This document shows, in pieces, positions 3,877 to 20,632 of a stretch of 47,468 nucleotides of DNA. Each line of letters opens with the position of its first letter. Position 1 is the first letter of the stretch. Made by a program: the position numbers and the translations under genes. The notes below the pieces were generated by a model. That model was not told where the DNA came from, did no database searches, and saw nothing but the letters and a program-made list of their open reading frames with translations. This DNA comes from an uncultured Nitrosomonadales bacterium (GTDB lineage Bacteria; Pseudomonadota; Gammaproteobacteria; Burkholderiales; Gallionellaceae). The stretch covers positions 1-47,468 of the forward strand of contig CAIOKY010000028.1 in assembly GCA_903858965.1 (NCBI GenBank). The letters are read 5' to 3'.

Positions 3877-4650
3877 TTAACCGAAGCGACCGGTGATATA
3901 GTCTTCCGTTTCCTTGCGCTTCGGGTTGGTGAATACCGCGCTGGTCTCGCCCAGTTCGATCAGGTCGCCGAGGTACATGTAGGCGGTGTAGTCGGAGATA
4001 CGAGCGGCCTGCTGCATGTTGTGCGTGACAATCACGATGGTGAAATCTTCTTTCAGTTCGTCGATCAATTTTTCGATGTGTGCGGTTGAGATAGGGTCGA
4101 GCGCCGAAGTCGGTTCGTCCAGTAGCAGGACTTGCGGTTTGACGGCAATCGCGCGGGCGATGCACAAGCGTTGCTGCTGGCCGCCGGAAAGTCCGGTGCC
4201 GCTTTGTTTGAGCTTGTCCTTTACCTCTGTCCACAGCGCAGCCTTGCGCAATGCCCATTCCACGCGCGCTTCCATGTCATGCTTGCTGAGGTTTTCGTAG
4301 AGCTTTACGCCAAACGCGATGTTGTCATAGATGGACATCGGGAACGGCGTGGGTTTCTGGAACACCATGCCGATCTTGGCGCGCAGCATGTTCAGGTCCT
4401 GTTTGCTGTCGAGGATGTTCGCACCATCGAGCATAATCTCCCCGGTGGCTTTCTGTTTCGGATAGAGCTGATACATGCGGTTGAAGGTGCGCAGCAGTGT
4501 GGACTTTCCGCAGCCGGATGGACCGATGAACGCGGTCACCATCTTTTCCGCGATGCTCAGGTTGATATCTTTGAGCGCGCGGTAATTCCCGTAATAAAAA
4601 TTCAGGTCTTTGATGATGATCTTCGGATTGGCGACAGATTCGATGTTCAT
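3877..4650 (-). CDS. pstB: Phosphate ABC transporter ATP-binding protein
   Basis: A 257-residue ATPase that powers high-affinity phosphate import. Walker A is GPSGCGKST (43-51), the signature LSGGQ is at 154-158, Walker B LLLDEP at 175-180 and the H-loop His at 210. Spacing and length are typical of PstB. It is last in the minus-strand order pstS, pstC, pstA, pstB, 24 bases after pstA. It works at the cytoplasmic face with PstA/PstC and, in known systems, also takes part in PhoU/PhoR signalling. Confidence 0.97.
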
Positions 4651-4674
4651 GAGATTGCCTTGTTAATGACCAAG

Positions 4675-5520
4675 TTAGTGTGTAGTGGCGCTTTGCCTGA
4701 ACAGCACGCGCGCCAGAATATTGAGTGTCAGCACGCTGACGGTGATCAGCAGCGCACCGGCCCAGGCAAGATTCTGCCAGTCTGAGTAAGGGCTCATTGC
4801 GAACTGGAAGATCACCACTGGCAGGTTGGCCATCGGCTGATCCATGTTGCTGCTCCAGAACTGGTTATTGAGTGCGGTGAACAGCAGCGGCGCGGTTTCG
4901 CCGCTGATGCGCGCCACGGCCAGTAATACACCGGTGATGATGCCGGCGCGCGCCGCGCGCAATGTGACGAAGTTGATCACTTTCCACTGCGGCGCGCCGA
5001 GTGCCGCAGCGGCCTCGCGCAACGTGCTGGGAACCAGGCGCAACATGTTCTCTGTGGTGCGGATCACGATGGGGATGACTAGTATGGATAATGCAAATGC
5101 ACCTGCCCAGCCGGAGAAGTGTTTGACATGAACGACATACACTTCATACACGAACAGGCCGATCACGATGGAAGGGGCGGACAACAGCACGTCGTTGATG
5201 AAGCGGGTGATCGGCGCCATCCAACCGCGCTGGCCGAATTCCGCCAGATAAGTACCGGCCAGTATTCCGATCGGGGTGCCGATCAGCGTGCCGACCACGG
5301 TCATCATCAGGCTGCCGGCAATAGCGTTGAGCAGTCCACCAGTACTGCCCGGTGGCGGAGTCATTTTATCGAACACCATCGGGGTGAGCGCTGGCAATCC
5401 GTGATTCAACAGTGTGATCAATATCCAGCACAGCCAGAACAGGCCGAACAACATCGCCAGTACTGAGACAGTGAGTCCTATTGCGTTGATGATACGGCGG
5501 CGTGTATATAAATTCAGCAT
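4675..5520 (-). CDS. pstA: Phosphate ABC transporter permease PstA
   Basis: A 281-residue inner-membrane permease with about six hydrophobic segments. The ABC-permease EAA-like loop is visible as [15 protein letters not shown] in the C-terminal half. Only five bases separate it from pstC upstream, so the two are co-transcribed. With PstC it forms the channel for phosphate delivered by PstS. Confidence 0.96.
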
Positions 5521-5525
5521 GGTAT

Positions 5526-6488
5526 TTATGCAGCTTGGCCCTCGCGTTGCCCCAGCTTGTAGAGCATGTAGCGCGCGATGGACAGGACGACGAAGGTAAT
5601 GAAAAACAGAATCAGCCCGAGTTCGATCAACGATGAAGTGTAGAGATCGCCGACTGCTTCGGTGAATTCATTGGCCAAGGCGGAAGAAATGCTGTTTCCC
5701 GGCATCAGTAGTGATTTGCTGAGTTCATGGGCATTCCCGATCACGAAGGTGACCGCCATCGTTTCCCCGAGCGCGCGGCCGAGTCCCAGCATGATGCCGC
5801 CTGCAACACCAACCTTGGTGTAAGGTAGAACAATATTCCACATGACTTCCCAGGTGGTTGCGCCCAAGCCGTAAGCGGATTCCTTGAGCAATGTGGGAAC
5901 CACATCGAACACATCTCGCATTACCGAAGCGATGAATGGGATGACCATGATGGAGAGGATAATCCCGGCGGTCATCATGCCGATACCCATCGGAGGTCCG
6001 GAGAAGAATGGGCCGATGTAGGATAGTGTGCCCAGATGTTTATTAATCCAAGGCTCGACATGATCGGCGAACAGCGGAGCAAACACGAACAATCCCCACA
6101 TACCATAGATGATGCTGGGGATGCCGGCGAGCAATTCAATCGCGATCCCGAGTGGGCGGCGTAAAATGCGCGGCGAGAGTTCGGTGAGGAACAATGCAAT
6201 GCCGAAACTGACGGGGATGCCGATAAGTAGTGCGATGCCTGAGGTGACCAGCGTGCCAATGATCGGGATCAGCGCGCCGAATTTATCATTGACCGGATCC
6301 CAATCGGAGCTGGTCAGAAAACCAAAGCCAAAGGCATGAATGGCAGGCATGCTGCCCACCACGAGTGAGACGATGATCGCCATCAATAATGCCAATACGC
6401 CAAAAGCGGACACGCGTGTCAGGCTGCGGAACAGCAAGTCGAACAGTGCTTGTCGTTTAAGGCGCGCTTCGTGTGAAAACATTGGCAT
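5526..6488 (-). CDS. pstC: Phosphate ABC transporter permease PstC
   Basis: A 320-residue inner-membrane permease with six or more hydrophobic segments and the EAA-type loop [14 protein letters not shown]. It is longer at the N-terminus than PstA, as is normal. It lies 90 bases downstream of pstS. That gap carries a strong terminator-like hairpin (6512-6538), so transcription of pstCAB is probably a read-through fraction of pstS transcription. Confidence 0.96.
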
Positions 6489-6506
6489 GGTGGTGTTCTT
6501 TTGGTT

Positions 6507-6538
6507 AAAAAAATCGCGGGGGCTCAGCCCCCGCGATT
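6507..6538 (-). terminator. Terminator-like attenuator between pstS and pstC
   Basis: On the minus strand a 12-bp stem (6512-6523 with 6527-6538, GC-rich core CGCGGGGGC) with a 3-base loop is followed directly by seven T (complement of 6507-6513). This is a textbook intrinsic terminator placed inside an operon. The inference is that it ends most pstS transcripts and sets a high ratio of binding protein to permease. Confidence 0.85.
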
Positions 6539-6578
6539 ATAGCTTAAGGAAATACTGTGTCAGTCACGCTCCGCTGGC

Positions 6579-7628
6579 TTATTTCCAGACAGACGCGCCT
6601 GTTGCGTCCTTGATTTGTGCTTTCCATGCAGCACGAATCAGTTTTACAACATCATCTGGCAATGGGACGTAGTCGAGATCAGATGCCAATTTATCGCCTT
6701 TAGCATAGGCCCAGTCGAAGAACTTCAACACTTCCTTGCCGGTTTCCGGTTTGTCCTGCACCTTGTACATCAGGATGAAGGTTGCGCCGCTGATCGGCCA
6801 GCTGTTCTTGCCAGCTTCATCGGTCAGGATTTCATAGAAACCGGGGGCCTTGTCCCATTTTGCTCCTGCAGCCGCAGCCTGGAATGCAGTGGCTTCAGGC
6901 TGAACAAATTGACCATCGTGGTTCTTCATTTGTACGTGGTTCATTTTGTTCTGCAGCGCATAAGCATATTCCACGTAGCCGATGGAATTCTTGATACGTT
7001 GTACGTAAGAAGCCACGCCTTCGTTGCCCTTGCCGCCGGTACCGGCTTTCCAGGAAACTGCGGTACCCTCACCAACACTGGACTTCCATTCGGCACTGGC
7101 CTTGGATAGATAGTTGGTGAAAATGAAGCTGGTGCCGGAACCATCAGAACGATGCACCACGGTGATATCTTCATTGGGCAGTTTGATATCTTTGTTCAAC
7201 GCGACAATCGCCGGATCATTCCATTTGGTGATCTTGCCAAGGTAGATGTCAGCCAAAGTAGCACCGTCCAATTTCAGTGTGCCGGCATCAACGCCGTTTA
7301 TGTTAATGACCGGAACTACGCCGCCGATCACAGTCGGGAACTGCATCAGGCCATTCTTTTCCAGATCTTCAGGCTTCATTGGCATATCCGATGCGCCAAA
7401 GTCCACAGTCTTGGCTTCGATTTGTTTGATGCCACCGCCAGAACCTATGGACTGGTAATTCAGGCCGATGCCGGTCTGAGTCTTGTAGGCATCAGCCCAT
7501 TTGGCATAAACCGGGTAAGGAAAAGTGGCGCCAGCACCGGTGATATCGGTTGCCAGGCTTGTGCTGGCATACGCTACCGCAGTGGCAGCGGTGATGCCGA
7601 TGATGAGTTGCTTGAGTTTGCTGTTCAT
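6579..7628 (-). CDS. pstS: Phosphate ABC transporter periplasmic binding protein
   Basis: A 349-residue PstS with an N-terminal signal peptide (MNSKLKQL..., hydrophobic core, cleavage near SLA-TDI). Phosphate-binding features include GAGATFPYPVYAKW near the mature start, the SIGSGGGIKQI loop, and HRSDGSGTSFIF. It delivers phosphate to PstC/PstA in the periplasm. It is first in its transcription unit and is preceded by a well-formed Pho box (7722-7739) and -10 (7706-7711). A terminator-like hairpin follows it. Confidence 0.97.
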   Translation of the reverse strand: MNSKLKQLIIGITAATAVAYASTSLATDITGAGATFPYPVYAKWADAYKTQTGIGLNYQSIGSGGGIKQIEAKTVDFGASDMPMKPEDLEKNGLMQFPTVIGGVVPVININGVDAGTLKLDGATLADIYLGKITKWNDPAIVALNKDIKLPNEDITVVHRSDGSGTSFIFTNYLSKASAEWKSSVGEGTAVSWKAGTGGKGNEGVASYVQRIKNSIGYVEYAYALQNKMNHVQMKNHDGQFVQPEATAFQAAAAGAKWDKAPGFYEILTDEAGKNSWPISGATFILMYKVQDKPETGKEVLKFFDWAYAKGDKLASDLDYVPLPDDVVKLIRAAWKAQIKDATGASVWK

Positions 7629-7705
7629 AATGTCTCCATTGGTATTGAGTATGCTATCTGCCGTTTTGATGATTGCCTAACCAACAACATCTTGTTGCGG
7701 GGTGC

Positions 7706-7739
7706 ATATTAGGGTGACTTTATTACAGGAATATTACAG
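7706..7739 (-). promoter_or_regulatory. Pho box and -10 element of pstS
   Basis: On the minus strand, two identical units CTGTAAT (complements of 7733-7739 and 7722-7728) are separated by 4 bp. That gives the 11-bp phasing of PhoB direct repeats (consensus unit CTGTCAT). Exactly 10 bp further on is TAATAT (7706-7711), a -10 element. No -35 is needed at PhoB-activated promoters. The predicted leader is about 70 bases. Confidence 0.85.
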
Positions 7740-7809
7740 TAATAGTCCTGGTTGTCGAGTACCGCATTGCCGTGATCTGAATCGGGGAAATTCACAGTAA
7801 CTCCTGAAA

Positions 7810-8517
7810 TCATCTCTGTACTTCTCGTTCTATTTCCTCGACAGAGATATGGCGCACATCGCGCCCCTTTACCATGTAAATCACATATTCGGACATGTTT
7901 TTGGCATGATCTCCTATACGTTCAATGGCCTTGGCGACAAACAGGATTTCCAGTACGCTGGAAATGGTTCGCGGATCTTCCATCATGAGGGTGACCAGAT
8001 AACGCATGACGGTGCGGAATTCCTCATCCACCAATTCATCCTGGCGCACGACCTGGGCTACAGCGGAAATATCCAGCTTGGCGAAGGCATCCAGCGATTG
8101 TCGCAGCATGCCCAGCGTCAGATTTGCCACATGTTTAATTTTATCGAATCGTGGCAAAGCGAGATTTTTTCTCTGCGCCAGATTCTTGGCTGTGAGGGCA
8201 ATCTTTTTTGCCTCATCGCCGATGCGTTCAAGATCGGTAATTGTTTTTACCACCATCATCACCATTCGCAAATCATTGGCGGTCGGCTGGCGGCGCGCGA
8301 TAATCTGGCTGCAACTTTCGTCTATGCCTACTTCGAGCGCATTGACGCGGTGGTCATCGGCGATGATACGATCAATTTGTTTTATATCACCTCTGCTCAG
8401 TGCATCAATTGCGAACCGCACTTGTTTTTCTACCAGCTCGCCCATCAACAAAACGCGTTCACGCACGGATTCCAGTTCTACATCATATTGCTTTGAAGTG
8501 TGTTCGTTATTAACCAT
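7810..8517 (-). CDS. phoU: Phosphate signalling protein PhoU
   Basis: A 235-residue all-helical protein made of two PhoU repeats. The metal-binding helix pattern is seen in TITDLERIGDEAKKIA and KAIERIGDHAKNMSEY. In known systems PhoU links the Pst transporter to the PhoR/PhoB two-component system and prevents excess phosphate uptake. Here it lies upstream of pstS rather than at the operon end after pstB. It has its own candidate Pho box (8570-8587), and 181 bases separate it from pstS. It is divergent from arsR. Confidence 0.96.
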   Translation of the reverse strand: MVNNEHTSKQYDVELESVRERVLLMGELVEKQVRFAIDALSRGDIKQIDRIIADDHRVNALEVGIDESCSQIIARRQPTANDLRMVMMVVKTITDLERIGDEAKKIALTAKNLAQRKNLALPRFDKIKHVANLTLGMLRQSLDAFAKLDISAVAQVVRQDELVDEEFRTVMRYLVTLMMEDPRTISSVLEILFVAKAIERIGDHAKNMSEYVIYMVKGRDVRHISVEEIEREVQR

Positions 8518-8553: not shown

Positions 8554-8587
8554 ATATTACTCATAAATGATGAAGTTTTTGTTACAG
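8554..8587 (-). promoter_or_regulatory. Candidate Pho box and -10 of phoU
   Basis: On the minus strand, CTGTAAC (8581-8587) and the weaker ACTTCAT (8570-8576) are separated by AAAA, giving 11-bp phasing. TAATAT (8554-8559) begins exactly 10 bp later, the same geometry and same -10 hexamer as at pstS. The leader would be about 30 bases. The second unit is degenerate, so confidence is moderate. Confidence 0.6.
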
Positions 8588-9027: not shown

Positions 9028-9049
9028 TAACGTTAACGAGGATGGCGAG

Positions 9050-9550
9050 ATGAGTGAGAAGCAATACCATGTGCTGGTGCTATGCACCGGCAATTCCGCA
9101 CGCAGCATTTTGGGTGAAGTGCTGTTCAACATGTTGGGCAAAGGAAGATTCATTGCGTACAGCGCGGGCAGCAAACCGGCCGGACGGGTCAACCCATTTG
9201 CGTTGGAGCTGCTGCAACAACAGGGATTCAGCACGGAAGGTTTGCGCAGCAAGAGCTGGGATGAGTTCACTGTGCCCGGCGCACCGGAGTTCGACTTCAT
9301 CTTCACTGTATGCGACAACGCAGCGGGTGAAACATGTCCGATCTGGCCGGGCAAGCCGGCCACCGCCCATTGGGGCATTCCCGACCCGGCGGCCGTGACA
9401 GGTGATGATGCAACCAAACGCGCGGCTTTTCGCAAGGCATCCGAGCAACTGGCGAAACGCATCCAGTTGTTCATGAGCTTGCCGATCGACAAGCTGGACA
9501 AGCTCACGCTAAAAGAAAAACTCGCAGAAATCGGTCGTACCGAGGATTGA
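9050..9550 (+). CDS. arsC: Arsenate reductase, low-molecular-weight phosphatase type
   Basis: A 166-residue cytoplasmic enzyme that reduces arsenate to arsenite. The P-loop is CTGNSAR (C12 to R18, the CX5R pattern of LMW tyrosine phosphatases). Further cysteines are C88 and C96, and the acid loop is HWGIPDPA. The start at 9050 is preferred because GAGG lies just upstream at 9038-9041 and because longer starts would run into arsR. Whether it uses thioredoxin or glutaredoxin cannot be told. It is followed four bases later by acr3. Confidence 0.93.
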   Translation: MSEKQYHVLVLCTGNSARSILGEVLFNMLGKGRFIAYSAGSKPAGRVNPFALELLQQQGFSTEGLRSKSWDEFTVPGAPEFDFIFTVCDNAAGETCPIWPGKPATAHWGIPDPAAVTGDDATKRAAFRKASEQLAKRIQLFMSLPIDKLDKLTLKEKLAEIGRTED

Positions 9551-9554
9551 CGAG

Positions 9555-10592
9555 ATGAACCTGTTTGAACGTTACCTGACCTTATGGGTGGGTCTGTGCA
9601 TCATGATCGGTGTTCTGCTCGGACAATTTATGCCAGGTGAATTCCATGCCATAGCCAGTCTGGAAATTGCCAAGGTCAATATCCCGGTCGGCATGCTGGT
9701 TTGGGTGATGATTATTCCGATGTTGCTGAAAGTCGACTTCGGCGCGCTATACCGGGTAAAGGCACATCTGCGCGGCATCGGCGTCACGCTGTTCATCAAC
9801 TGGGGCGTGAAACCTTTTTCGATGGCGTTCCTGGGCTGGTTGTTCATCCGCCATGTGTTTGCTGATTATTTGCCCGCGGCACAGCTCGACAGCTATGTTG
9901 CTGGATTGATTCTGCTGGCGGCCGCGCCGTGTACCGCAATGGTGTTCGTTTGGAGTAATCTGGTGAAAGGCGATCCGTATTTCACGCTGTCGCAAGTGGC
10001 GCTCAACGATACCATCATGATCTTTGCTTTCGCCCCGCTGGTGGGGTTGCTGCTCGGTATTGCGAGCATCGCCGTGCCGTGGGACACACTGTTGGTCTCA
10101 GTAGTCTTTTACATCGTAATCCCGGTCATTCTCGCGCAGTTGTTGCGTCGCCAATTATTGGCGCATGGCGAAGCTGCATTCAAACGGGCAATGGAAACAA
10201 TCGCACCGCTGTCTATGGGCGCGCTGCTGCTTACTTTGGTATTGTTGTTTGCGTTGCAGGGCAACGCCCTTGTTGCTCAACCGCTGGTAATCGCCATGCT
10301 GGCCGTGCCGATCCTGATCCAGGTATTGTTCAATGCAGGGTTGGCCTATAGTCTGAACCGGCGCCTGGGTGTGGCGCATTGTGTTGCTGCTCCATCGGCG
10401 CTAATAGGCGCGAGCAACTTTTTCGAACTGGCAGTGGCCACGGCCATCAGCCTGTACGGTTTTCAATCCGGAGCGGCGTTAGCTACTGTGGTCGGTGTGC
10501 TGGTCGAAGTGCCGGTGATGCTGCTGGTGGTGAGAATCGCCAACGCTACGCAACATTGGTACGGGCCTGCCAAATATAGCCGCCCTGATTAG
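9555..10592 (+). CDS. acr3: Arsenite efflux permease, ACR3 family
   Basis: A 345-residue inner-membrane protein with about ten hydrophobic segments. Two ACR3 hallmarks are visible: the cysteine in AAPCTAMVFVWS (fourth segment) and the glutamate in GASNFFELAVA (ninth segment), both important for arsenite transport in known family members. It exports the arsenite made by ArsC. It forms one operon with arsR and arsC, next to the pst/phoU genes whose transporter also admits arsenate. Confidence 0.95.
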   Translation: MNLFERYLTLWVGLCIMIGVLLGQFMPGEFHAIASLEIAKVNIPVGMLVWVMIIPMLLKVDFGALYRVKAHLRGIGVTLFINWGVKPFSMAFLGWLFIRHVFADYLPAAQLDSYVAGLILLAAAPCTAMVFVWSNLVKGDPYFTLSQVALNDTIMIFAFAPLVGLLLGIASIAVPWDTLLVSVVFYIVIPVILAQLLRRQLLAHGEAAFKRAMETIAPLSMGALLLTLVLLFALQGNALVAQPLVIAMLAVPILIQVLFNAGLAYSLNRRLGVAHCVAAPSALIGASNFFELAVATAISLYGFQSGAALATVVGVLVEVPVMLLVVRIANATQHWYGPAKYSRPD

Positions 10593-11821: not shown

Positions 11822-12574
11822 TCATGAGTCTAACCACTCCTTGACTTGTTGAGTTACCCAGATGTCATCATCCAGAGGTAAATCGTGCCCTGCGGTTGGG
11901 TGCAAGCGCATAGCGCAGCACCAGTGTTGTGCCAGCGCCAGCGAGCATCTGACATTGACCAGTCGGTCTTGCTGCCCGGCCAGTAATAACACCGGTACGG
12001 GGGGCTTGGTTTGTGTGGCACGATAATAGAGCGCTGCCCGCAGTTGCCGCAGGATATTGGTGCGTGTGACGGGCCACTCCCGGGCGTAGGTCAGCCACTG
12101 TTGCAATATTGCCTGCCTGTGTTCCGAATGGTTTTTTAATGCACTGGTGAGATCCAGTATCAGCTTTTCACGCTGAACCGCCGAGCCGTAGAGCAGACGC
12201 AACAAGGCAAAATAGTTCGCCGGGCGCAGTCTGTGGTAGAAAGGGTTATAGGGTGACAGACTGGTATTGATCAATACCATTTTTTCGATTTCGTCCGGAT
12301 ACAGTTCGCTCCAGGATACCGCCACCATTGCCCCCAAGGATAAAGCCAGCACATGGTAAGGCGGGGAATAGCCGAGCTGTTTGAGTTGTGTGCGGCAATG
12401 GCCGGCCATTGCCGTCACGCTGGCGGCGCTGGTCTGCGCATGCAAGCTGCCATTGCCGGGGAAATCCAGAGTCACGACATGTTGCGCGCCCATGGTATTT
12501 TGAAACAGCATGGGAAACTCACCCCAGTGGCGGGATTCGCGCATCAGGCCACGCAACAGCACCCAGGTGGTCAT
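11822..12574 (-). CDS. Alpha/beta hydrolase
   Basis: A 250-residue alpha/beta-hydrolase. The nucleophile elbow is ALSLG (Ser79; the first Gly of GxSxG is replaced by Ala), followed by an acid in GQQDRLV and a histidine in TAGHDLPLDD, so the triad appears complete. The start at 12574 overlaps the stop of the upstream M14 peptidase gene in an ATGA junction, indicating coupling. Longer in-frame starts lie inside that gene and are not needed. Substrate unknown, possibly an ester or amide related to the peptidase product. Confidence 0.8.
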   Translation of the reverse strand: MTTWVLLRGLMRESRHWGEFPMLFQNTMGAQHVVTLDFPGNGSLHAQTSAASVTAMAGHCRTQLKQLGYSPPYHVLALSLGAMVAVSWSELYPDEIEKMVLINTSLSPYNPFYHRLRPANYFALLRLLYGSAVQREKLILDLTSALKNHSEHRQAILQQWLTYAREWPVTRTNILRQLRAALYYRATQTKPPVPVLLLAGQQDRLVNVRCSLALAQHWCCAMRLHPTAGHDLPLDDDIWVTQQVKEWLDS

Positions 12575-13581
12575 GTGCTGTACCAGCGCGCGATGGCTTG
12601 TTCCTGCAGGCGACTGCGGCTGGGGCCCTTGACCACCCAGTTGCCATGACTGCAAGCGGCGCGCATCAGGAAGTCCAGCCAGACAGTGTGCCCGCGCAAC
12701 ACCCGGTGCAAGCGATGTTCTACCGAGGGATTGAATATTCCCTGGCGGGAAAACAATTGGCGGGGATTCTTCTTCACCCACAACCAGGAGCCCATTTCCA
12801 GCGTCAGGGGCAAGAAGGTTTTGTTCTGGTTTTGTTGTGCCTGCAGATAAAGATAATCCCATATGTCGCCATGGGTGCGATATTGCACGCTTTGCGGTTC
12901 ATACAGGTATTTGTTGTTGGGATATATCTTCCGGAACAGTTCTTCCAGCGTGAGAATGTCAGCCAGGTGTTCGATCGGATTGACACTGTGGGCATAGGGA
13001 AACCATACCCGGTCACGCGAACCGAAACCGGAATGGCAATCCACGGCAATACTGAAAGGGCGCGCCAGTAATTCTTGCTGGACGACACGGCACAGCGCCA
13101 GATTCTCGTTCTCCATTGCGACTCCGGCCACTCCGCGATACCAAGGCAAAAGAGGGCTGATACGGTGCCCGCCCAGCAGGAAGGGAACTCTGCCTGCTGC
13201 CTCTATTGGCGCGTTGCGCATCAGGTCAACGCCTTGTGGATTGCAGCGCGTCGATTGCGACATGCCGCCGGGATTGATCAAAGGCATGAATACCAGCCGC
13301 ACATCCTGCAGCAAATGATTCAGGCTTTTGTCCCACTCCAGACGGGCGAGCAAGCCACGCAAAAAGTACAGCAATACTTGCGTGCCAATGCGCTCCAAGC
13401 CATGGATGCCGCCAAAGAACCCGATCGCAGGCAACATCGGATCGGGGTTCCCCATGGTCAGTTGATATACCGGAAAGCGCATGTTGCCTGCGCTGACTTC
13501 ACACGCGACATGTGCAACCAAGTGACCGCGGCCAAGCTCGAGTATACGTTCCAGTTCGTTTAATTCGGGCAGCGTGGACAT
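12571..13581 (-). CDS. M14-family zinc carboxypeptidase / deacylase-like protein
   Basis: A 336-residue M14 (succinylglutamate desuccinylase-like) metalloenzyme. Zinc ligands are H60 and E63 (GGIHGLER) and H183 (DCHSGFG). The catalytic Glu is E262 in LTLEMGSW. The start at 13581 gives MSTLPELNELER; a longer frame exists but would run into the upstream terminator. No signal peptide is seen, so a cytoplasmic role is likely. It is coupled to the following alpha/beta hydrolase by ATGA. The pair suggests two steps on one substrate, but the substrate is not known. Confidence 0.82.
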   Translation of the reverse strand: MSTLPELNELERILELGRGHLVAHVACEVSAGNMRFPVYQLTMGNPDPMLPAIGFFGGIHGLERIGTQVLLYFLRGLLARLEWDKSLNHLLQDVRLVFMPLINPGGMSQSTRCNPQGVDLMRNAPIEAAGRVPFLLGGHRISPLLPWYRGVAGVAMENENLALCRVVQQELLARPFSIAVDCHSGFGSRDRVWFPYAHSVNPIEHLADILTLEELFRKIYPNNKYLYEPQSVQYRTHGDIWDYLYLQAQQNQNKTFLPLTLEMGSWLWVKKNPRQLFSRQGIFNPSVEHRLHRVLRGHTVWLDFLMRAACSHGNWVVKGPSRSRLQEQAIARWYST

Positions 13582-13646
13582 GGCAATTATAAATATCGTC
13601 GATTCAAATTTGGAATGCAACTCCTGGATGATTTGCAGAATACCTG

Positions 13647-13674
13647 AAAAAACGGGTCTCCTTAGAGACCCGTT
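13647..13674 (-). terminator. Intrinsic terminator after olsB
   Basis: A 10-bp stem (13651-13660 with 13665-13674, AACGGGTCTC) with a 4-base loop is followed on the minus strand by six T (complement of 13647-13652). It ends olsB transcription and separates it from the M14 gene. Confidence 0.88.
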
Positions 13675-13712
13675 GAACATACATTGTGTGGCGGTGTTGC
13701 CTGGGGTGCAAT

Positions 13713-14465
13713 TTACGTTTTCAGGAAGTGCCTGGCATAACGGCTGCTCATGCGCGACATTGGCGGCAGGATGAACAGGTCGGCGGTGTTGAATTCAGGA
13801 TCCCATGCCGGTTCGCCGCAGATATAGGCACCCAGCCGCAAATAGCCCTTGAGCAAAGGAGGAATCGGTGCATCAAGGTGTTGATTCAGCGCCTGGAGCG
13901 GCAGCGGACAGCGCGGGAACACGCTGTATTCGGCAGGCGCGGAGTACAACTGTTGTAATTTTCGATAAATGCTTGCAGCCACATGTCCGCCATCCGCCAT
14001 GCTGATGCTGGCGCAGCCAATCAGGTATTCGTGGCGGTGTTGCAGCATGTATTGCGCCAGTCCGCTCCATAACTGGGTGATGGTTGCACCATCGCGATGA
14101 TCCCAATGCACGCAGGAGCGTCCGACTTCCACCATGCGGTCGCTGAGGTGCAGCAACCTGGTCATATCGAACTCAGTCTGGGAATAATAGCCGCCGATTT
14201 TTTCCGCCTGATCGGGTGAGAGGATGCGGTACGTTCCCACCACTTTATTTTCAATGCTCTCGCGTACCAACAAGTGCTCGCAATATTTGTCGAAAATGTC
14301 GCGGTCAATGCCTTCCTTTGCGCTGGGCAGATTGGCGCCCATCTCTTCGGCGAATACTTTATAACGCAGGCGTTGTGCCTCAAGTATTTCCGCATCGCTG
14401 TGTGCGATGGTGGTGATTAAACGCCGTTGGACGGCAGGTTGAGGTTGTCGATTGAGTTCCAGCAT
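13713..14465 (-). CDS. olsB: L-ornithine N(alpha)-acyltransferase (OlsB-like)
   Basis: A 250-residue GNAT-type acyltransferase of the OlsB/hemolysin-like family, which attaches a 3-hydroxy fatty acid to ornithine to make lyso-ornithine lipid. Typical stretches are RLRYKVFAEEMGA, FDKYCEHLLV, RMVEVGRSCVHWDHRDG and LKGYLRLGAYICG. The start at 14465 is chosen over 14471 because GGGAG sits 7 bases before it and would abut the earlier ATG. It follows olsA by 92 bases, a gap that holds Pho-box-like repeats. Ornithine lipids contain no phosphorus and replace phospholipids during phosphate limitation in several bacteria. Confidence 0.88.
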   Translation of the reverse strand: MLELNRQPQPAVQRRLITTIAHSDAEILEAQRLRYKVFAEEMGANLPSAKEGIDRDIFDKYCEHLLVRESIENKVVGTYRILSPDQAEKIGGYYSQTEFDMTRLLHLSDRMVEVGRSCVHWDHRDGATITQLWSGLAQYMLQHRHEYLIGCASISMADGGHVAASIYRKLQQLYSAPAEYSVFPRCPLPLQALNQHLDAPIPPLLKGYLRLGAYICGEPAWDPEFNTADLFILPPMSRMSSRYARHFLKT

Positions 14466-14499
14466 ACACATCTCCCGTGGATTGGTTGAAGATGCTCGC

Positions 14500-14544
14500 A
14501 GATTAGGGATGACGTGTTGCAGCGTGATGACGGGAGTATGAAGG
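14500..14544 (-). promoter_or_regulatory. Candidate Pho-box promoter of olsB
   Basis: On the minus strand three 7-bp units lie exactly 11 bp apart: CCTTCAT (14538-14544), CCGTCAT (14527-14533) and CTGCAAC (14516-14522). After exactly 10 bp comes TAATCT (14500-14505), a -10-like hexamer. The geometry equals that of the pstS promoter. The leader would be about 28 bases. The units are degenerate against CTGTCAT (5, 6 and 4 matches of 7). Confidence 0.5.
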
Positions 14545-14557
14545 AAGTGTGAATTTA

Positions 14558-15478
14558 CTATTTGGGCAGATGGTGCAGCAGCGGATCGACCAGCAGCGCA
14601 TAAGCCGATTGAGATGAAAGAATGGTTTGCGGCACGGCAGGGATTGCGGGTTGCGTGATTGTTTGCCGGGCTGAACAGATATTTTGCAGTTCCTGTGCAA
14701 TGGCTGCTTGTGCGGCACGTGCCAGCATGCGGCGATTTTCACTGGCAGCAGGCAGGGTCGGGGTGAATACTACCAGGGCATGGAGATTCGCGCAGCGCAG
14801 GATCTTCCAGATGGAGTGCACCAGCGTAGTGTCGCCGATGAACGCTGCGGCAGAGCTCGGCTTGCCTTCCCCGTCATGGTAGCGCAGTGCGATAGGGCAC
14901 AGCCGCACGGCTGCATCGATGGCCGGCTGGATGAGTGCCGAGTGAAAGTGACCGACCTGCTTTCCGTCCGTCGTAGTGCCTTCGGGAAAGAGTCCCACGC
15001 AAGCACCGTGTTTGAGCAAGTTGCCGACGTTCCGGTTGATCAGTGAAGCATTCTGGCGCATGGCGCGCTCAACGAAAATCGTTCCGCTGCGTCGGCTGAG
15101 CCAACCGATAACGGGCCAATTGCGCACTTCCGATTTGGCAATGAATTGCGCCGGATGGATCGCATTCAGCACAAAAATATCCAGCCATGAGACATGGTTC
15201 GAAACTATCAGGCAGCCGCCTTCGCCACGCGCGGGTTGCTGTCCTTCGATCTGGATGCCGATGTTGAAAATGCCCAGCAGCTGCCGGCTCCATGTTTTCA
15301 CGATGCGTTGTTGCCTGGTCTGGTTCAGATACGGGTAAACGATCGCCAGCACCATCCCGGAAAAAAGATGCAGTACGATGCGCAGGCCACGGAACATGGC
15401 GATCGGAATATTCGTGGATGCGGCACTATCTTCTGACGCATCGCTGTGCTTCAACGCTTGCGCAGAGTGTTTATCCAT
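14558..15478 (-). CDS. olsA: 1-acyl-sn-glycerol-3-phosphate / lyso-ornithine lipid acyltransferase (OlsA/PlsC family)
   Basis: A 306-residue membrane-associated acyltransferase with the HX4D catalytic motif NHVSWLD (H95, D100) and the substrate motif FPEGT (164-168), preceded by a hydrophobic segment near residues 33-50. PlsC-family enzymes acylate lysophosphatidate; next to olsB the likely job is O-acylation of lyso-ornithine lipid. The start at 15478 is an ATG preceded by GGAAG; an earlier GTG lacks a ribosome site. It overlaps the end of the EAL-GGDEF gene by 8 bases, so it is co-transcribed with it. Confidence 0.82.
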   Translation of the reverse strand: MDKHSAQALKHSDASEDSAASTNIPIAMFRGLRIVLHLFSGMVLAIVYPYLNQTRQQRIVKTWSRQLLGIFNIGIQIEGQQPARGEGGCLIVSNHVSWLDIFVLNAIHPAQFIAKSEVRNWPVIGWLSRRSGTIFVERAMRQNASLINRNVGNLLKHGACVGLFPEGTTTDGKQVGHFHSALIQPAIDAAVRLCPIALRYHDGEGKPSSAAAFIGDTTLVHSIWKILRCANLHALVVFTPTLPAASENRRMLARAAQAAIAQELQNICSARQTITQPAIPAVPQTILSSQSAYALLVDPLLHHLPK

Positions 15479-17264
15479 AATGAGCTTCCGCACCCTGATA
15501 TCGTTCTTCGGCCACTTCTTGCGGGCGCAGGTGGCGCCGCTCGATGAACAGGCTGTTGCCGGGTTTTTCCTTGGCCATTTTTTTTGCGGCAGTGGCGGCT
15601 TCCGCTACGGCATGGTGCGAGCCGAATAATTCCGGAATAACCCAAGTCACGCCGATCGAGAGCGTGGGCAGCGGGTGGTGGACGATGCGCCCCTGCCTGT
15701 CGCTGCTCAGGTAACCGCCGATCGAGCGATGATCTTTATCGAACAACGCTGCCGAGGTGTGCGCAAAGACGGAGAGAGCCTGATGGCAGCGTTGTTCCCA
15801 ATCCCGGCTTTGCATGACAAGGATAAAGTCGTCGCCGCCGATATGGCCGATAAAGTCATGCACCGGATCGCATACGGTGCCGAGCAGATTGGCGGTGAAC
15901 TGGATCAACTCGTCGCCTTTGCGGTAGCCGCATACATCGTTGAAGGGCTTGAAGTTGTCGAGGTCGCTATAACAGACGGCGAAGGATTTTCCTGAATGAA
16001 GCAGATGTTCGATATGCTCGTTGATGGGAACATTGCCGGGTAATAACGTCAGCGGGTTGGCGTAACGCGCAGTTTCTATCTGGGCCTGGGTGATTTCGCG
16101 CAGCAGGTCCTGTCCGGTGCCGATCCCGATGTAGCGGCCTTGTTCGGTGATGATGAAGCCGTCGGTAAAATGCCTGATTTCGGATTCGCTCAGAAAACCG
16201 CTCAATTCATGGATCGGAGTCGATTTCTCCACCAGCAACGGCTCCGCGTTCATCATGTCCGCACAGGGTTTCTTGCCGAGCAACTCGCGTCGGTATGGTT
16301 GTGCGAGGCTGTCCACGAATTCGTAGCGGTTTATCAATCCCACCGGGCGGCCATTTTTGACGACAGGTATCGCCCGCAAGTTTTTATTGGCGGAGAAATT
16401 GGCGAGTATTTTTTCGATCCCTGTTTCCGGCTGCATAGGTTCGACATAGCGCAAGATGGTTTCCACCGTGACACTGCGTGGACTTCTGTAGGGTTGTTCA
16501 GACGGATGGTTGGAGTTGATCAAACAGCCGACATCTGCCGGCGGATGCAGAGGCGGAACCTGGCTGGGACGGGCGATGAAATAGCCCTGCCCGCACGCGA
16601 TCCCGATATCGCGTGTGGTCCTGAATTCTGCGGCGGTCTCGATTCCTTCGGCGATCACCTGTGTGCCGGAACTGAGTGCGATGCTTTGGATCGATCTTAG
16701 AAATTGTTGCTTGAGTGGGTCGGCATTGACGCCCTGCACGAAGTGCATGTCCACCTTCACGAACTCGGGGCGCAATTCTGACCACAGGCGCAGGCTTGAA
16801 AATCCCTCGCCCAGATCGTCGATCGCGATCTGGAAACCCATGCTGCGGTAGTGCAGCAGCGCGTTGCGCATTTCCTCAAAATCGAAGGTGGGCTGATTTT
16901 CGGTGATTTCGATGATGACCCGTTTCGGGTCGATGCCGATGTTTTCCATGAAGGCCAGCGTTTGTCCGTTCTTGAAGCTGGGATGCGCCAGTGCTTCCGG
17001 GCTGACATTCAGGAATAATTGGCCGGGCAGATGCTTGACGGCAAATGACTCCAGCACAGTTTGTCTGCACAGCATTTCAATTTCCAGTGAAAGTCCCTGT
17101 TGCCTGGCGGCCGCGAATAGGTTGGCAGGCGAATGCAACGGGCTGTCGGCAGGGCCGCGGATCAGTCCCTCAAAGCCGAAAATCTTGCCGCTGGAGAGAT
17201 CCATGATCGGCTGGAAAAGTGCCGAGAGGTCGCGCTGGTCGAGAATGTCCTGTAGCGATTTCAT
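15471..17264 (-). CDS. EAL - CBS pair - GGDEF cyclic-di-GMP signalling protein
   Basis: A 597-residue cytoplasmic protein without membrane segments. The EAL phosphodiesterase domain comes first (about 5-245) with its key acidic residues kept: E32GL, FLNVSP, IEITE, IDDLGEG, VKVDM and AEGIET. CBS-like repeats follow (about 280-405, RAIPVVKNGRPVGLI and a second copy), then a C-terminal GGDEF domain whose signature reads GGDDF (476-480). Cyclic-di-GMP breakdown is therefore likely and synthesis uncertain. The start at 17264 removes a leader lacking homology. It overlaps olsA and is preceded by Pho-box-like repeats. Confidence 0.9.
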   Translation of the reverse strand: MKSLQDILDQRDLSALFQPIMDLSSGKIFGFEGLIRGPADSPLHSPANLFAAARQQGLSLEIEMLCRQTVLESFAVKHLPGQLFLNVSPEALAHPSFKNGQTLAFMENIGIDPKRVIIEITENQPTFDFEEMRNALLHYRSMGFQIAIDDLGEGFSSLRLWSELRPEFVKVDMHFVQGVNADPLKQQFLRSIQSIALSSGTQVIAEGIETAAEFRTTRDIGIACGQGYFIARPSQVPPLHPPADVGCLINSNHPSEQPYRSPRSVTVETILRYVEPMQPETGIEKILANFSANKNLRAIPVVKNGRPVGLINRYEFVDSLAQPYRRELLGKKPCADMMNAEPLLVEKSTPIHELSGFLSESEIRHFTDGFIITEQGRYIGIGTGQDLLREITQAQIETARYANPLTLLPGNVPINEHIEHLLHSGKSFAVCYSDLDNFKPFNDVCGYRKGDELIQFTANLLGTVCDPVHDFIGHIGGDDFILVMQSRDWEQRCHQALSVFAHTSAALFDKDHRSIGGYLSSDRQGRIVHHPLPTLSIGVTWVIPELFGSHHAVAEAATAAKKMAKEKPGNSLFIERRHLRPQEVAEERYQGAEAHYG

Positions 17265-17295
17265 CGTAAATATCCCGTATGTGGCGAGTGCCAGC

Positions 17296-17351
17296 AGGAT
17301 AATCCGCAATTGTTTCAGTTGAATTAAGGCGGCATTGCAGATTGATTGCGC
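17296..17351 (-). promoter_or_regulatory. Candidate Pho-box promoter of the EAL-GGDEF gene
   Basis: On the minus strand four units lie at strict 11-bp phase: GCGCAAT (17345-17351), CTGCAAT (17334-17340), CCTTAAT (17323-17329) and CTGAAAC (17312-17318). Exactly 10 bp later is TATCCT (17296-17301), a -10-like hexamer. The leader would be about 25 bases. The match to CTGTNAT is partial, but the phasing and -10 position repeat those at pstS and phoU. Confidence 0.45.
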
Positions 17352-17494
17352 AGCAGGCAATAAGGAATCATTTTTGCCCCATCACCTTTACTTTTTCTAT
17401 CCCGGATATCAGCTGCATTCACCGGTTCAGATTTAACCATCCTGCAACACAATCTTCACGGAATCTTCGCATTCGACGAGTAGTGTGCGCGGGC

Positions 17495-18304
17495 ATGAAC
17501 AAGTTCCGGCATCTCAAATTCGGGCATTTGGCGTGGCTCGTTCCGTTGTTGCTCTACAGCAGCGATGCGCTGGCATGGGGTTTGTACACGCATGTCTATT
17601 TTGCCCAGCAACTGGTGTGGGCGGTGCCGCTTGCCGATTCCCGCTTTCGCCGTGCCGTCAGTATGTTTCCAGCCTGGGTGATGGCCGGTGCGTGCATGCC
17701 GGATCTGTCGCTGACCGGGCAACACGCCGGCACGCATGATTTCACGCAGACCCATCAATGGGATACCGCGCGCAAGTTGCTCGAACAGGCTAGTTGCGAT
17801 GAAGAGCGCGCCATTGCGTTGGGGTTTGCCAGCCACCTGCTGGTGGACATCGTCGCGCACAATCACTTTGTGCCGGCGCACGAGAAATTGTGGGGGAACG
17901 TGCCGATCGTGACCCATGCGTCCAGCGAGTGGGCGATGGATGCGCATATCAAGAACCATGTGTTCAACTCGCCCGCCGAACTGCTCAAACAGAATCAGGA
18001 TGTGCTGGCGCATTTTTCCGCGCTGCACTTCAAATGCGATCCGCTGAAAGCACGGCGCGCGATCATGTTGCTGGCACACGGTGATGCGCTGCTGCGCGGC
18101 AGCCGTCTGGCCGAGGGGATATACCATACGGGCAAGATACTGGATCGCAATTTGAAACGCCGCTTCAATTATTATCTGCGCGAAACTTCGCGCCGTCTGG
18201 TGCAGATCAACCAGCTGATCGAGGGGCATAGCCCGGTCTGGCATCCGGAACCGCCGTTGCCGCATCTGGCGCATGACCGTGTGCGGGCGTACTCGCTGCG
18301 GTAG
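17495..18304 (+). CDS. Zinc-dependent phospholipase C-like protein
   Basis: A 269-residue exported protein of the zinc-dependent phospholipase C / S1-P1 nuclease fold. The start at 17495 opens a signal peptide whose predicted cut after DALA leaves Trp28 as the first mature residue; in this family the N-terminal Trp is itself a zinc ligand. Further candidate ligands are H33 (YTH), the Asp of CMPDL, the His of FTQTHQWDTA, and the cluster SHLLVDIVAHNHF. It may release head groups from phospholipids in the periplasm. It is divergent from the EAL-GGDEF gene and convergent with the PAP2 gene. Confidence 0.78.
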   Translation: MNKFRHLKFGHLAWLVPLLLYSSDALAWGLYTHVYFAQQLVWAVPLADSRFRRAVSMFPAWVMAGACMPDLSLTGQHAGTHDFTQTHQWDTARKLLEQASCDEERAIALGFASHLLVDIVAHNHFVPAHEKLWGNVPIVTHASSEWAMDAHIKNHVFNSPAELLKQNQDVLAHFSALHFKCDPLKARRAIMLLAHGDALLRGSRLAEGIYHTGKILDRNLKRRFNYYLRETSRRLVQINQLIEGHSPVWHPEPPLPHLAHDRVRAYSLR

Positions 18305-18355
18305 ATCAACTACCACTTGCCGATACCGCTGGATCTGTTTCTGGAAACTGAACTG

Positions 18356-18886
18356 CTAAAGGCCTAAGGATAAACCCGATACCACCGCACCTATCACTAT
18401 TCCCGCCAATACATCGCTCGGGTAATGCAGCCCGAGCACCAGGCGCGAAACGGCCACCAGTGCGGTGAACGGCAGCAGCAGCCAGGCGAGCGCCGGGTAG
18501 TAGGCCAGCGCTATGACACTGAACGCCACGGCATGCAACGTGTGACCGGAAGGGAAGCTGAACTGATCCAGCGGCGCGATGCCGCAGCTGATGCCCTGAT
18601 TTTTGTTGTACGGACGCGGGCGATGCGTCTTGTGTTTCAGCCATTTGTACAGCACGGTGCAAACCAGTCCGGCGGCTGCCATGTGGAATACCGGCAACAG
18701 CGCGGCAGCGCGGAACTCAACCAGCAGCCATACCATCAGGCAATACCAGAAGATGCCGTCGCCCAGCCGGCTGATCAGGCGGAAAGCCCGGCGTATCAGG
18801 GGATTGATGCTTGCGCGGTTGAAGCGCAAGCACCAGGCTTCATCCCAGGTTTGGATCCGTTGCAGGTTGTAGATTCGGTGTGACAT
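18356..18886 (-). CDS. PAP2-superfamily membrane phosphatase
   Basis: A 176-residue membrane phosphatase. All three PAP2 motifs are present: KHKTHRPRP (84-92), PSGH (112-115) and SRLVLGLHYPSD (147-158), with four to five hydrophobic segments. Such enzymes dephosphorylate lipid phosphates such as phosphatidate or undecaprenyl diphosphate. The ATG at 18886 lies inside the 3' end of the glycosyltransferase gene (47-base overlap) and has a strong GGAGGT site, so the two are co-expressed. Beside a glycosyltransferase and dgkA, production of diacylglycerol is a sensible role, though not proven. Confidence 0.88.
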   Translation of the reverse strand: MSHRIYNLQRIQTWDEAWCLRFNRASINPLIRRAFRLISRLGDGIFWYCLMVWLLVEFRAAALLPVFHMAAAGLVCTVLYKWLKHKTHRPRPYNKNQGISCGIAPLDQFSFPSGHTLHAVAFSVIALAYYPALAWLLLPFTALVAVSRLVLGLHYPSDVLAGIVIGAVVSGLSLGL

Positions 18887-20042
18887 GGCGCACCTCCGGT
18901 TTGACGGCTAGTTGCACAAGGGCTTGCTCGAATTCATCCACGATGTTTTGCCAGTCGAGTTTCAGCATGGTCTGGTGCGACTGTGCACGCAATGTTGCGA
19001 CGCTCGCCATATCGTTGGCCAATCCGCATGCCCGATCGATGAATTGATCTTCATCGCCGAATTCGGCATGCAAACCGTTCTCCTGGTGTTTGATATGTTG
19101 GGCGGCTGCCGCGTAACGATAGGCCACCACGGCAAGCCCGCTGGCCATCGCTTCCACGGTCACGTTGCCGTAGGTTTCCGTCATGCTGGGGAACAGGAAG
19201 ATGTCGCCCGACGCATAATGTGCGGCAAGGTCTTCGCCGGTGCGCATCCCGGCGAAGATATATTCCGGATTTTTCTGTTGCAGCTCTTTGCGTACCGGGC
19301 CATCGCCGACCAGGACCAGCTTCAGTTTAGGATTGAGCGCCTGCATCGCCTTGAAGGTGCGCAGCACCAGCGGCATGTTCTTTTCCGCGGAGATGCGGCC
19401 CACGTAGATGACCGCCAATTCATCATCGCCAACCACGCCCCATTGCAGGCGCAGTTTTTCACTGCGCTTGCCTGGATGGAACAATGCCGTATCAACGCCG
19501 CGCGCGACCACTTGCAGGTTCTGGTAACCCTCTTGTGTCAGTGTGTCCCTTAATTCATTGGTAGGCACCAGCGTGACATCGGTGCGGTTGTGCAAGTTGC
19601 GCAAGTACGCGGCAACGGTCTTTTGCAGCCAGCCGAAGCCGTAATGCTGGCTGTAACTGTGGAAATTGGTATGGAAATCGCTGCTGACCGGGATGCCGAG
19701 TTTGCGCGCGGCCGATAAAGCTGATGAGCCCAGTGGGCCTTCGGTGACCAGATGCACCACGTCGGGACGCTGTGCGGTCCAGAGTTTGATCAACTGCCGT
19801 TTGGCAGGCAGGCCCAGTTTCAAACCTTCATAACGGGGCAGGGGAAAACCGCGCACCAATACTTCCTGCAAGGTGAGTTCCTGTTTCGCGCTGTCCTGCG
19901 CATTCTGGCGCGGCCGTATCAGCTCGACCACGTGGCGCTGGCGCAATCCTTCCACCATGCGGCTGATGGTCATTGCCACGCCGTTGATCTCCGGCGGGTA
20001 AGTCTCGGTCACGATAGCGATACGCAGCATGCGGTTTGCCAT
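18840..20042 (-). CDS. Family 4 glycosyltransferase (probably lipid-directed)
   Basis: A 400-residue GT-B glycosyltransferase. The N-terminal acceptor domain begins RIAIVTETYPPEINGVAMT. The C-terminal donor domain shows YVGRISAEKN, LVLVGDGPVRKEL and the E-x7-E motif in SMTETYGNVTVEAMASG. This subtype resembles enzymes that place hexoses on diacylglycerol or other lipids (MgtA/SqdX-like), but donor and acceptor are not certain. The start at 20042 is set by AGGAGAAAAC. The 3' end overlaps the PAP2 gene. Between it and dgkA lie three Pho-box-like units. Confidence 0.85.
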   Translation of the reverse strand: MANRMLRIAIVTETYPPEINGVAMTISRMVEGLRQRHVVELIRPRQNAQDSAKQELTLQEVLVRGFPLPRYEGLKLGLPAKRQLIKLWTAQRPDVVHLVTEGPLGSSALSAARKLGIPVSSDFHTNFHSYSQHYGFGWLQKTVAAYLRNLHNRTDVTLVPTNELRDTLTQEGYQNLQVVARGVDTALFHPGKRSEKLRLQWGVVGDDELAVIYVGRISAEKNMPLVLRTFKAMQALNPKLKLVLVGDGPVRKELQQKNPEYIFAGMRTGEDLAAHYASGDIFLFPSMTETYGNVTVEAMASGLAVVAYRYAAAAQHIKHQENGLHAEFGDEDQFIDRACGLANDMASVATLRAQSHQTMLKLDWQNIVDEFEQALVQLAVKPEVRHVTPNLQPATDPNLG

Positions 20043-20103
20043 GTTTTCTCCTTGGTTATGGATATTCATGGCGCGCACTCTCTCACCGGAATGAGAAAGT
20101 TTG

Positions 20104-20132
20104 ATGAAGCTTTTATGAGGGTTTTGTGACGG
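20104..20132 (-). promoter_or_regulatory. Candidate Pho box before the glycosyltransferase gene
   Basis: On the minus strand the units CCGTCAC (20126-20132), CCCTCAT (20115-20121) and GCTTCAT (20104-20110) are separated by AAAA both times, giving 11-bp phase and the A-rich spacer of the Pho consensus. The hexamer 10 bp downstream (CATTCC, 20088-20093) is a poor -10. That is the main weakness. It begins four bases beyond the dgkA stop. Confidence 0.5.
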
Positions 20133-20135
20133 CTT

Positions 20136-20504
20136 TCAGCCCAGCAGGATCAGCAGCCAGACCGAAACGACATTCAGCAGGCTGAGCAATACCGCCGCAC
20201 TGCCGATATCCTTGGCGCGTTTGGCGAGCTGGTGATGGTCCAGCGAGGTGTGGTCCACGGCGGCCTCCACGGCGGAATTGAGCAATTCGACGATCAGCAC
20301 CAGCAACACGCTGGCGATCATCAATGCCTTGCCGATCGCGCTGACAGGCATGAATAGCGCGGTCGGCACGAGGATGCATGCCAGCAGCACTTCCTGGCGG
20401 AAGGCATCCTCATGGAGGATCGCGGCGCGCAACCCGGCCAGCGAGTAGAACAATGCGCTCCAGACGCGCTTCAGTCCGGTCTTGCCTTTGTATGGGCTTT
20501 CCAT
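20136..20504 (-). CDS. dgkA: Diacylglycerol kinase
   Basis: A 122-residue integral membrane kinase with three hydrophobic segments and the DgkA signatures ELLNSAVEAAVD and AKDIGSAAV. It phosphorylates diacylglycerol to phosphatidate, returning it to phospholipid synthesis. It is upstream of and in the same direction as the glycosyltransferase-PAP2 pair, 93 bases away. A plausible -10 (TATACT) lies upstream but no Pho-like repeats were found there. Its substrate is what a phospholipase C or a PAP2 enzyme would produce. Confidence 0.95.
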   Translation of the reverse strand: MESPYKGKTGLKRVWSALFYSLAGLRAAILHEDAFRQEVLLACILVPTALFMPVSAIGKALMIASVLLVLIVELLNSAVEAAVDHTSLDHHQLAKRAKDIGSAAVLLSLLNVVSVWLLILLG

Positions 20505-20632
20505 GTTTTCCCCTGAGAATTGATCGTGGATGGCATTAGTATAGGCAAGTGCGGCAGGGTAGTGGCTCTTTGTTGCAGATTTGTTAAGAAATGGCTTGCC
20601 GCGGCATATTTAGCCGCCCCGGAAAATTCAGG

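Follow-up and report, generated by a model that had tools for sequence, protein, structure and literature searches.

Neighbouring genes of an uncultured Nitrosomonadales bacterium from the family Gallionellaceae, located in a stretch of 47,468 nucleotides (contig CAIOKY010000028.1 of assembly GCA_903858965.1; hereafter the window), quite probably constitute a PhoB-controlled island for lipid remodelling at low phosphate. It consists of three units: an EAL-CBS-GGDEF gene (the EAL gene) with the ornithine-lipid genes olsA and olsB; a gene for a zinc-dependent phospholipase C (PLC); and a gene for a family 4 glycosyltransferase (GT4) paired with that for a PAP2 lipid phosphatase. A seventh gene, dgkA, coding for a diacylglycerol kinase, is a member by its position, not consistently by its regulation. 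The evidence comprises the gene families, their recurrent order, the Pho-like arrays and their recurrence, the spacing to -10 hexamers at pstS, the EAL gene and olsB, and the presence of a gene for PhoB.

Gene content and order in the Gallionellaceae

All seven genes had been named in an earlier sequence-only reading of the window, and the names were confirmed by Pfam and NCBIfam matches (Table 1). The overlap of olsA with the EAL gene, also claimed there, is real and reaches up to 23 nt at the end of the EAL gene; likewise, the end of the GT4 gene is overlapped by the start of the PAP2 gene. Candidate start codons of the GT4 gene are GTG 20078, ATG 20069 or ATG 20042. The pstSCAB-phoU genes, not mentioned in that reading, lie 5–6 kb from the lipid island in the same window, and PhoB is encoded on another contig of the same genome (TIGR02154, 353.6 bits vs a cut-off of 296.2).

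For the tally of gene order, one set of 120 Gallionellaceae genomes was searched seven times; close named relatives are Gallionella, Ferrigenium and Sideroxydans, plus metagenome-assembled genomes of Gallionellaceae and Nitrosomonadales. The E-value limits were 1e-60 for GT4, 1e-100 for EAL, 1e-10 for PLC, 1e-30 for olsA, 1e-20 for PAP2 and 1e-15 for dgkA; for OlsB, 87 of the 105 matches listed were used, the 18 weak or partial ones being excluded, and the dgkA tally covers 71 of 107 genomes. The recurrent order is EAL>olsA>olsB>dgkA>GT4>PAP2>PLC<, with the PLC gene convergent on the GT4-PAP2 pair, the two halves being swapped (dgkA>GT4>PAP2>PLC<EAL>olsA) in the window and in the named relatives L031, L032, L035 and L036. 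The EAL gene and olsA lie within 2 kb of each other in 58 of the 70 genomes carrying both, and all 62 pairs found within 10 kb share one strand. The same distance of 2 kb holds for the adjacent olsA and olsB in 69/83 genomes, for GT4 and PAP2 in 50/50, and for olsB and dgkA in 43/65 (with dgkA as covered in the 71 genomes), while GT4 and PLC are within 10 kb in 31/41; each of the 41 family genomes with a PLC match also has a GT4 match. Since draft genomes break contigs, these proximity counts are low estimates. As read from the match tables, without a tally, the PLC gene is divergent from pstS in six genomes (G046, G072, G091, G101, G105 and G107), and pstS adjoins olsB in G040 and G044 and the EAL gene in G004 and G025.

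Pho-like arrays and promoter spacing

At least two CTGTCAT-like units at 11-bp phase precede olsB and the EAL, PLC and GT4 genes and, weakly, dgkA. The sequence-only reading had assigned such repeats to three genes; the repeats themselves stood, the count did not, as there are four arrays in addition to the weaker dgkA site (Table 1). Among the same 94,858 positions, the reference promoters of pstS and phoU rank 10 and 22 as four-unit sites, and the control promoters, except for an arsR-like one, rank 202 to 689. It should be noted that the Pho unit was extended to four units only after the repeats had been seen.

Concerning the matrix tests, one matrix was trained on pstS promoters of 29 relatives with the window's own site held out (27 used, 18 unique sites); the highest score that it gives anywhere in the window falls on the window's pstS box. 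Promoters were taken from 60 relatives' loci and the window, the loci being a non-random set picked for clustered genes or a nearby pstS. In the held-out test the matrix was retrained without the tested gene, the training being seeded with the pstS-derived matrix even when pstS itself was tested; dinucleotide shuffles served as the null, with p ≤ 0.05. Shuffles, background and the in-operon genes olsA and PAP2 provided the controls, and a generic consensus matrix was also used. Within 200 nt upstream, significant sites were found for the EAL gene in 37/47 promoters, olsB in 44/47, PLC in 22/25 and GT4 in 35/39, the values for olsA and PAP2 being 1/20 and 1/36. Within 150 nt the counts were 20/22 for pstS, 45/47 for olsB, 24/25 for PLC and 36/39 for GT4, with none for olsA (0/20) or PAP2 (0/36). 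The plain pstS matrix (200 nt, at least the 95th background percentile) gave 20/22 for pstS, 39/47 for EAL, 22/25 for PLC and 27/47 for olsB, again with none for olsA (0/20) or PAP2 (0/36); the generic matrix gave, at the same percentile, 20/22 for pstS, 38/47 for EAL, 42/47 for olsB, 9/38 for dgkA, 1/20 for olsA and 1/36 for PAP2. In the window itself, the two-unit PLC site has p = 0.005 in both the 150- and 200-nt held-out tests, and olsA is without a Pho site of its own (p = 0.10 at 150 nt, 0.21 at 200 nt).

In the PhoB-matrix scan, olsB and the EAL, PLC and GT4 genes thus score above background, and both the gene order (120 genomes) and the repeats (60 loci) recur in relatives. The earlier proposal that the genes act together under phosphate control is supported by these sites and this order, dgkA being the exception: its sites are significant in only 10/38 promoters at either length, and the claim that it is a PhoB target in general was rejected.

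The position of the -10 hexamer offers a check independent of the site score: in Pho promoters, TAnnnT lies 10 nt past the last unit. For pstS, it is found at exactly this distance in 19 of 20 promoters, the remaining one having it at 21 nt; for the EAL gene, at 10 nt in 24/38 and at 21 nt in eight more (32/38 together); and for olsB, at 21 nt, i.e. one further unit, in 32/43. Between 0 and 24 nt, no other offset occurs more than once in these three sets, the averages being 0.05–0.2. Beyond the family, EAL orthologues have TAnnnT at +10 in 16/23 cases from the order and 7/22 from the class. The GT4 and PLC promoters of relatives keep the same spacing with other hexamers—CAnnAT in 31/39 for GT4, GAnACT in 13/25 for PLC, or 19/25 with a looser pattern—these patterns having been picked by eye from the sequences, and the window's own GT4 and PLC promoters carrying still other hexamers. 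In relatives, the hexamer ends 7 nt 5' of the assigned ATG in 26/39 cases for GT4 and 18/25 for PLC (loose pattern); in the window, the differing hexamers lie 7 nt (GT4, 20067–20082) and 8 nt (PLC, 17481–17497) before the ATG. This recurring distance suggests that the GT4 and PLC transcripts may be leaderless. Scans for sigma-70 promoters and terminators gave no excess over shuffles.

Table 1 Genes of the lipid island, nearby phosphate genes and Pho-like sites in the window
Feature	Position	Strand	Match, rank or -10 element
olsB, ornithine N-acyltransferase type (GNAT, Acetyltransf_5)	13713..14471	-	Pfam PF13444, 8.4e-37
olsA, lyso-ornithine-lipid O-acyltransferase type (PlsC family)	14558..15493	-	PF01553
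EAL-CBS-GGDEF gene, RapA/PA3258 type	15471..17264	-	Pfam domains
Zinc-dependent phospholipase C family gene (Zn_dep_PLPC; PLC)	17495..18304	+	PF00882, 6e-20
PAP2 lipid phosphatase	18356..18886	-	PF01569, 5.8e-23
GT4, family 4 glycosyltransferase	18840..20069	-	PF13439, PF13692
dgkA, prokaryotic diacylglycerol kinase	20136..20504	-	PF01219, 9e-34
pstB, pstA, pstC, pstS, phoU (context)	3877..8517	-	NCBIfam match above curated cut-off for each
Four-unit 11-bp Pho array of olsB	14516..14555	-	rank 1/94,858; TAATCT 14500-14505, 10 nt after
Four-unit Pho array of EAL gene	17312..17351	-	rank 5/94,858; TATCCT 17296-17301, 10 nt after
Four-unit Pho array of PLC	17431..17470	+	rank 3/94,858; TAGTGT 17481-17486
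Four-unit Pho array of GT4-PAP2	20093..20132	-	rank 2/94,858; GAGAGT 20077-20082, ATG 7 nt on
Two-unit Pho-like site of dgkA	20572..20589	-	rank 16/94,902 as two units, 1059/94,858 as four
pstS Pho box (reference site)	7722..7739	-	rank 1/94,902 by generic matrix
phoU Pho box	8570..8587	-	rank 3/94,902

Beside phoU, the window also contains ars genes (8704–10592), i.e. those for a helix-turn-helix regulator of the arsR family, an arsC-type low-molecular-weight phosphatase and ACR3 arsenite efflux. An AT-rich Pho-like site next to them, 8672–8690(+), is the second-best in the window by the pstS-trained matrix; arsenate being a phosphate analogue, shared control of the ars and Pho genes would make sense.

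Encoded proteins and competing explanations

For comparisons within the family, proteins with a stop inside the aligned span were excluded, leaving 45 EAL, 25 PLC and 17 GT4 sequences. Residues E32, N86, E119, D149, D150, K170, E206 and Q226, which we take to be the EAL catalytic set, are identical in 42–43 of the 45 EAL sequences, the remaining positions being gaps, plus one K at 206. The GGDEF motif reads GGDDF in 41/45, the window protein included. The GGDEF half of this protein (15471–17264) has PVHD at the inhibitory site, the usual motif being RxxD, and is thus without the arginine. A homologue from Pseudomonas aeruginosa, which shares the domains, is 41% identical over 577 residues and is preceded by a Pho array of three units, was taken for PA3258 because its neighbour is a carboxy-terminal-processing peptidase, presumably PA3257. 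A chromosomal-looking gene run with a prc-type peptidase and a PA3258-type gene was seen in a sequence filed as a P. aeruginosa plasmid (L272, NZ_CP137508.1).

PA3258 is described as an EAL-CBS-GGDEF homologue of RapA with effects consistent with phosphodiesterase activity (PMC12900916, PMC9394441), and RapA is a PhoB-induced phosphodiesterase of cyclic di-GMP (c-di-GMP), its action leading to the loss of the adhesin LapA at low phosphate (PMC3032545). A PhoB-controlled phosphodiesterase is thus already known. The window protein resembles the RapA/PA3258 type and is predicted to be a c-di-GMP phosphodiesterase: the domain order is that of P. fluorescens RapA and PA3258, with full-length similarity via the P. 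aeruginosa homologue, RapA being likened by description. Unlike in those systems, the gene in the Gallionellaceae is usually located directly upstream of olsA-olsB, an arrangement for which a limited literature search found no description.

The sequence-only reading held that the olsA overlap ties the lipid switch to c-di-GMP; this is upheld as far as a shared promoter and a likely operon, and goes no further. The chances are even that lipids and c-di-GMP are independent outputs of the Pho regulon, the EAL protein being an adhesion-only RapA that shares the ols promoter for convenience. The EAL family is indeed wider than its linkage to ols, with matches (E ≤ 1e-60; own genome and family included, a few in the EAL part only) in 108/300 genomes of the order and 30/321 of the class. 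Forty extra-family EAL loci, hand-picked among the 99 matching genomes outside the family, showed no match to olsA, olsB, GT4, PAP2 or PLC above 45 bits in flanks of up to about 9 kb on either side; moreover, G025 and G059 have an EAL copy beside pstS, away from ols, and RapA acts on LapA adhesion (PMC3032545). The proximity and common strand of the EAL gene and olsA in the family, however, exceed convenience, and lipid genes do accompany EAL genes in a few loci elsewhere, i.e. a PLC fragment in L163 and GT4 with PAP2 in L228, as well as an EAL-domain match beside PLC in L270, one of 25 extra-family PLC loci.

With regard to ornithine lipids, the accessible part of a study on Acinetobacter baumannii reports that olsB and olsA are required for aminolipids at phosphate limitation and are PhoR-regulated, a phosphate control such as that proposed here; neither RapA nor a module of PLC and GT4 is mentioned in that part, and the window has a RapA-type gene as well as such a module (PMC11828411). 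Past olsB, the window has a zinc carboxypeptidase (M14) gene (12571–13680), and a relative likewise comes after olsB in L037. An alpha/beta hydrolase gene (11822–12541), two genes past olsB, has a weak NCBIfam match (33.2 bits, cut-off 385) to OlsI, an ornithine-lipid acyltransferase. In G004, a short OlsB-like stretch (C81:22479-22622; 48% identity over 48 residues, in an open frame of 85 amino acids) comes after the EAL gene, and other genomes also have short matches to OlsB residues 1–68.

The PLC was assigned to the zinc-dependent family by its PF00882 match (72.3 bits vs a cut-off of 26.8) together with nine candidate zinc ligands—W28, H33, D70, H87, H114, D118, H124, H141 and E145—identical in 25/25 sequences. 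Its start is signal-peptide-like by inspection, the mature end being predicted at Trp28. In comparison with the Bacillus cereus enzyme, as we take its motifs to be, the HxxxD(x5)H and HxxxE spacings agree, and the first W-H spacing is shorter here. PF00882 is its only Pfam match at E ≤ 0.001, and, judged by family assignment, this sets it apart from the phospholipase PlcP, a metallophosphoesterase. An AlphaFold2 model from six sequences was poor (mean pLDDT 44), and a search of solved-structure sequences at E ≤ 1 found nothing beyond one chance-level match. Zinc-PLC is present in 47/300 genomes of the order, five of them in the family; in the 25 of 42 extra-family loci that were covered, GT4 is found within 1.5 kb in 21 and PAP2 in 18. 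Upstream of the PLC gene, 21/25 of these loci have a Pho-like site at the 95th percentile and 6/25 at the 99th.

This pairing bears on the possibility, which we consider unlikely, that the PLC scavenges outside phospholipids or has another substrate, supplying no diacylglycerol to GT4. The signal-peptide-like start would suit such a role, as would the secreted members of the PF00882 family, the poor model and the lack of a solved relative; the invariable GT4 match in PLC-bearing family genomes and the proximity of GT4 and PAP2 outside the family argue against it. The PlcP-Agt system (P. aeruginosa PA3219-PA3218; marine bacteria), in which a phospholipase C and a glycosyltransferase with Pho boxes yield glycolipids at low phosphate (PMC8528852, PMC4796936), follows the same logic. 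The window differs in having a PF00882 zinc-dependent phospholipase, and in that the PAP2 gene overlaps the GT4 gene, with the PLC gene convergent to both.

The GT4 protein is a probable diacylglycerol/glycolipid glycosyltransferase, judging from its NCBIfam matches. The best of them, N-acetylglucosaminyl phosphatidylglycerol synthase (151.6 bits vs a cut-off of 480), could also speak for a phosphorus-containing glycolipid, e.g. N-acetylglucosaminyl-phosphatidylglycerol, or a precursor of envelope polysaccharide, as the product of GT4-PAP2 instead of glycosyl-diacylglycerol, sub-cut-off as it is. The second is alpha-monoglucosyldiacylglycerol synthase (113.1 bits vs 400). A phosphorus-containing glycolipid or a polysaccharide precursor as the product seems quite unlikely, since the GT4 Pho sites and the pairing with a phospholipase suit a phosphorus-sparing lipid better.

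Several findings weigh against a PhoB-controlled island. OlsB and OlsA, although the top-scoring NCBIfam families for the olsB and olsA products, score 176.1 and 142.2 bits, below their equivalog cut-offs of 320 and 300. In some genomes, the modules are apart from each other, an olsA match is absent from 5 of the 75 genomes with the EAL gene, and the relatives are not independent. Within 150 nt upstream, the held-out test finds EAL sites in only 14/47 promoters, an effect of this cut, since in many relatives the site is at -155 to -173 relative to the assigned start. Scored as two units, the EAL site of the window is weak (p = 0.05 at 150 nt, 0.10 at 200 nt); it becomes prominent only as a multi-unit array, a post hoc extension of the test. 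At the 95th percentile, the plain pstS matrix detects GT4 in 8/39 and dgkA in 8/38 promoters, and the generic matrix detects PLC in 11/25 and GT4 in 22/39; the low dgkA fraction in the held-out tests belongs here as well. TAnnnT at +10/+21 is absent for GT4 (0/16) and nearly so for PLC (1/11). The in-operon control promoters are partly within coding DNA, and the arsR-like control promoter ranks 10, 21 and 32 at two, three and four units. Chance as the origin of the repeats and the neighbourhood, which the commonness of short AT-rich repeats and this arsR-like promoter (10/94,902 as a two-unit site) might suggest, was nevertheless rejected as having a negligible probability, in view of in-operon controls near background, the exact -10 spacing at three promoters, and the recurrence of both across genera.

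Proposed mechanism and its implications

In the mechanism proposed for the PhoB-controlled island, a fall in phosphate would lead PhoB to bind the 11-bp-phased arrays and induce the three units, the first and third presumably as operons. The EAL-olsA-olsB unit would produce phosphorus-free ornithine lipid, while its RapA-type protein would lower c-di-GMP, which, by analogy with RapA, would free the cells from surfaces. The exported zinc PLC would split the phospholipids of the membrane, yielding diacylglycerol along with a phosphorylated head group; GT4 would turn diacylglycerol into glycolipid, and PAP2 would add diacylglycerol by dephosphorylating lipids of the phosphatidic acid type. The freed phosphate would be taken up by the PstSCAB system encoded nearby, and DgkA, not consistently a PhoB target, could route diacylglycerol back to phospholipid. 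PhoB binding, induction and operon structure, along with the enzyme substrates and the change in lipids, are inferred here. A more specific proposal, that a single PhoB transcript joins the ornithine-lipid exchange to lower c-di-GMP and that a secreted zinc-PLC/GT4/PAP2 route makes glycolipid independently of PlcP, is put forward tentatively, with slightly less than even confidence.

Each of these outputs is known separately; what looks new is the association of RapA with ornithine-lipid genes, along with the module of zinc-PLC, GT4 and PAP2. The Pho-like sites at EAL-CBS-GGDEF genes of non-family loci, reaching at least the 95th background percentile in 22/40 from the order and 22/29 from the class, suggest RapA-type control beyond Pseudomonas. 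With the recurrent EAL-olsA-olsB arrangement, a coupling of lipid exchange to departure from surfaces becomes testable, and, from the zinc-PLC/GT4/PAP2 module, remodelling of glycolipids is to be expected in lineages missed by a search for PlcP only; if the proposal is true, lipid renovation in the order would have a second, widespread type in this module. Iron-oxidising bacteria are surrounded by phosphate-binding iron oxides, and a conserved membrane programme for low phosphate would therefore help to explain how they manage; if true, iron-oxidisers would couple the remodelling of their membranes with release from phosphate-binding iron-oxide surfaces.

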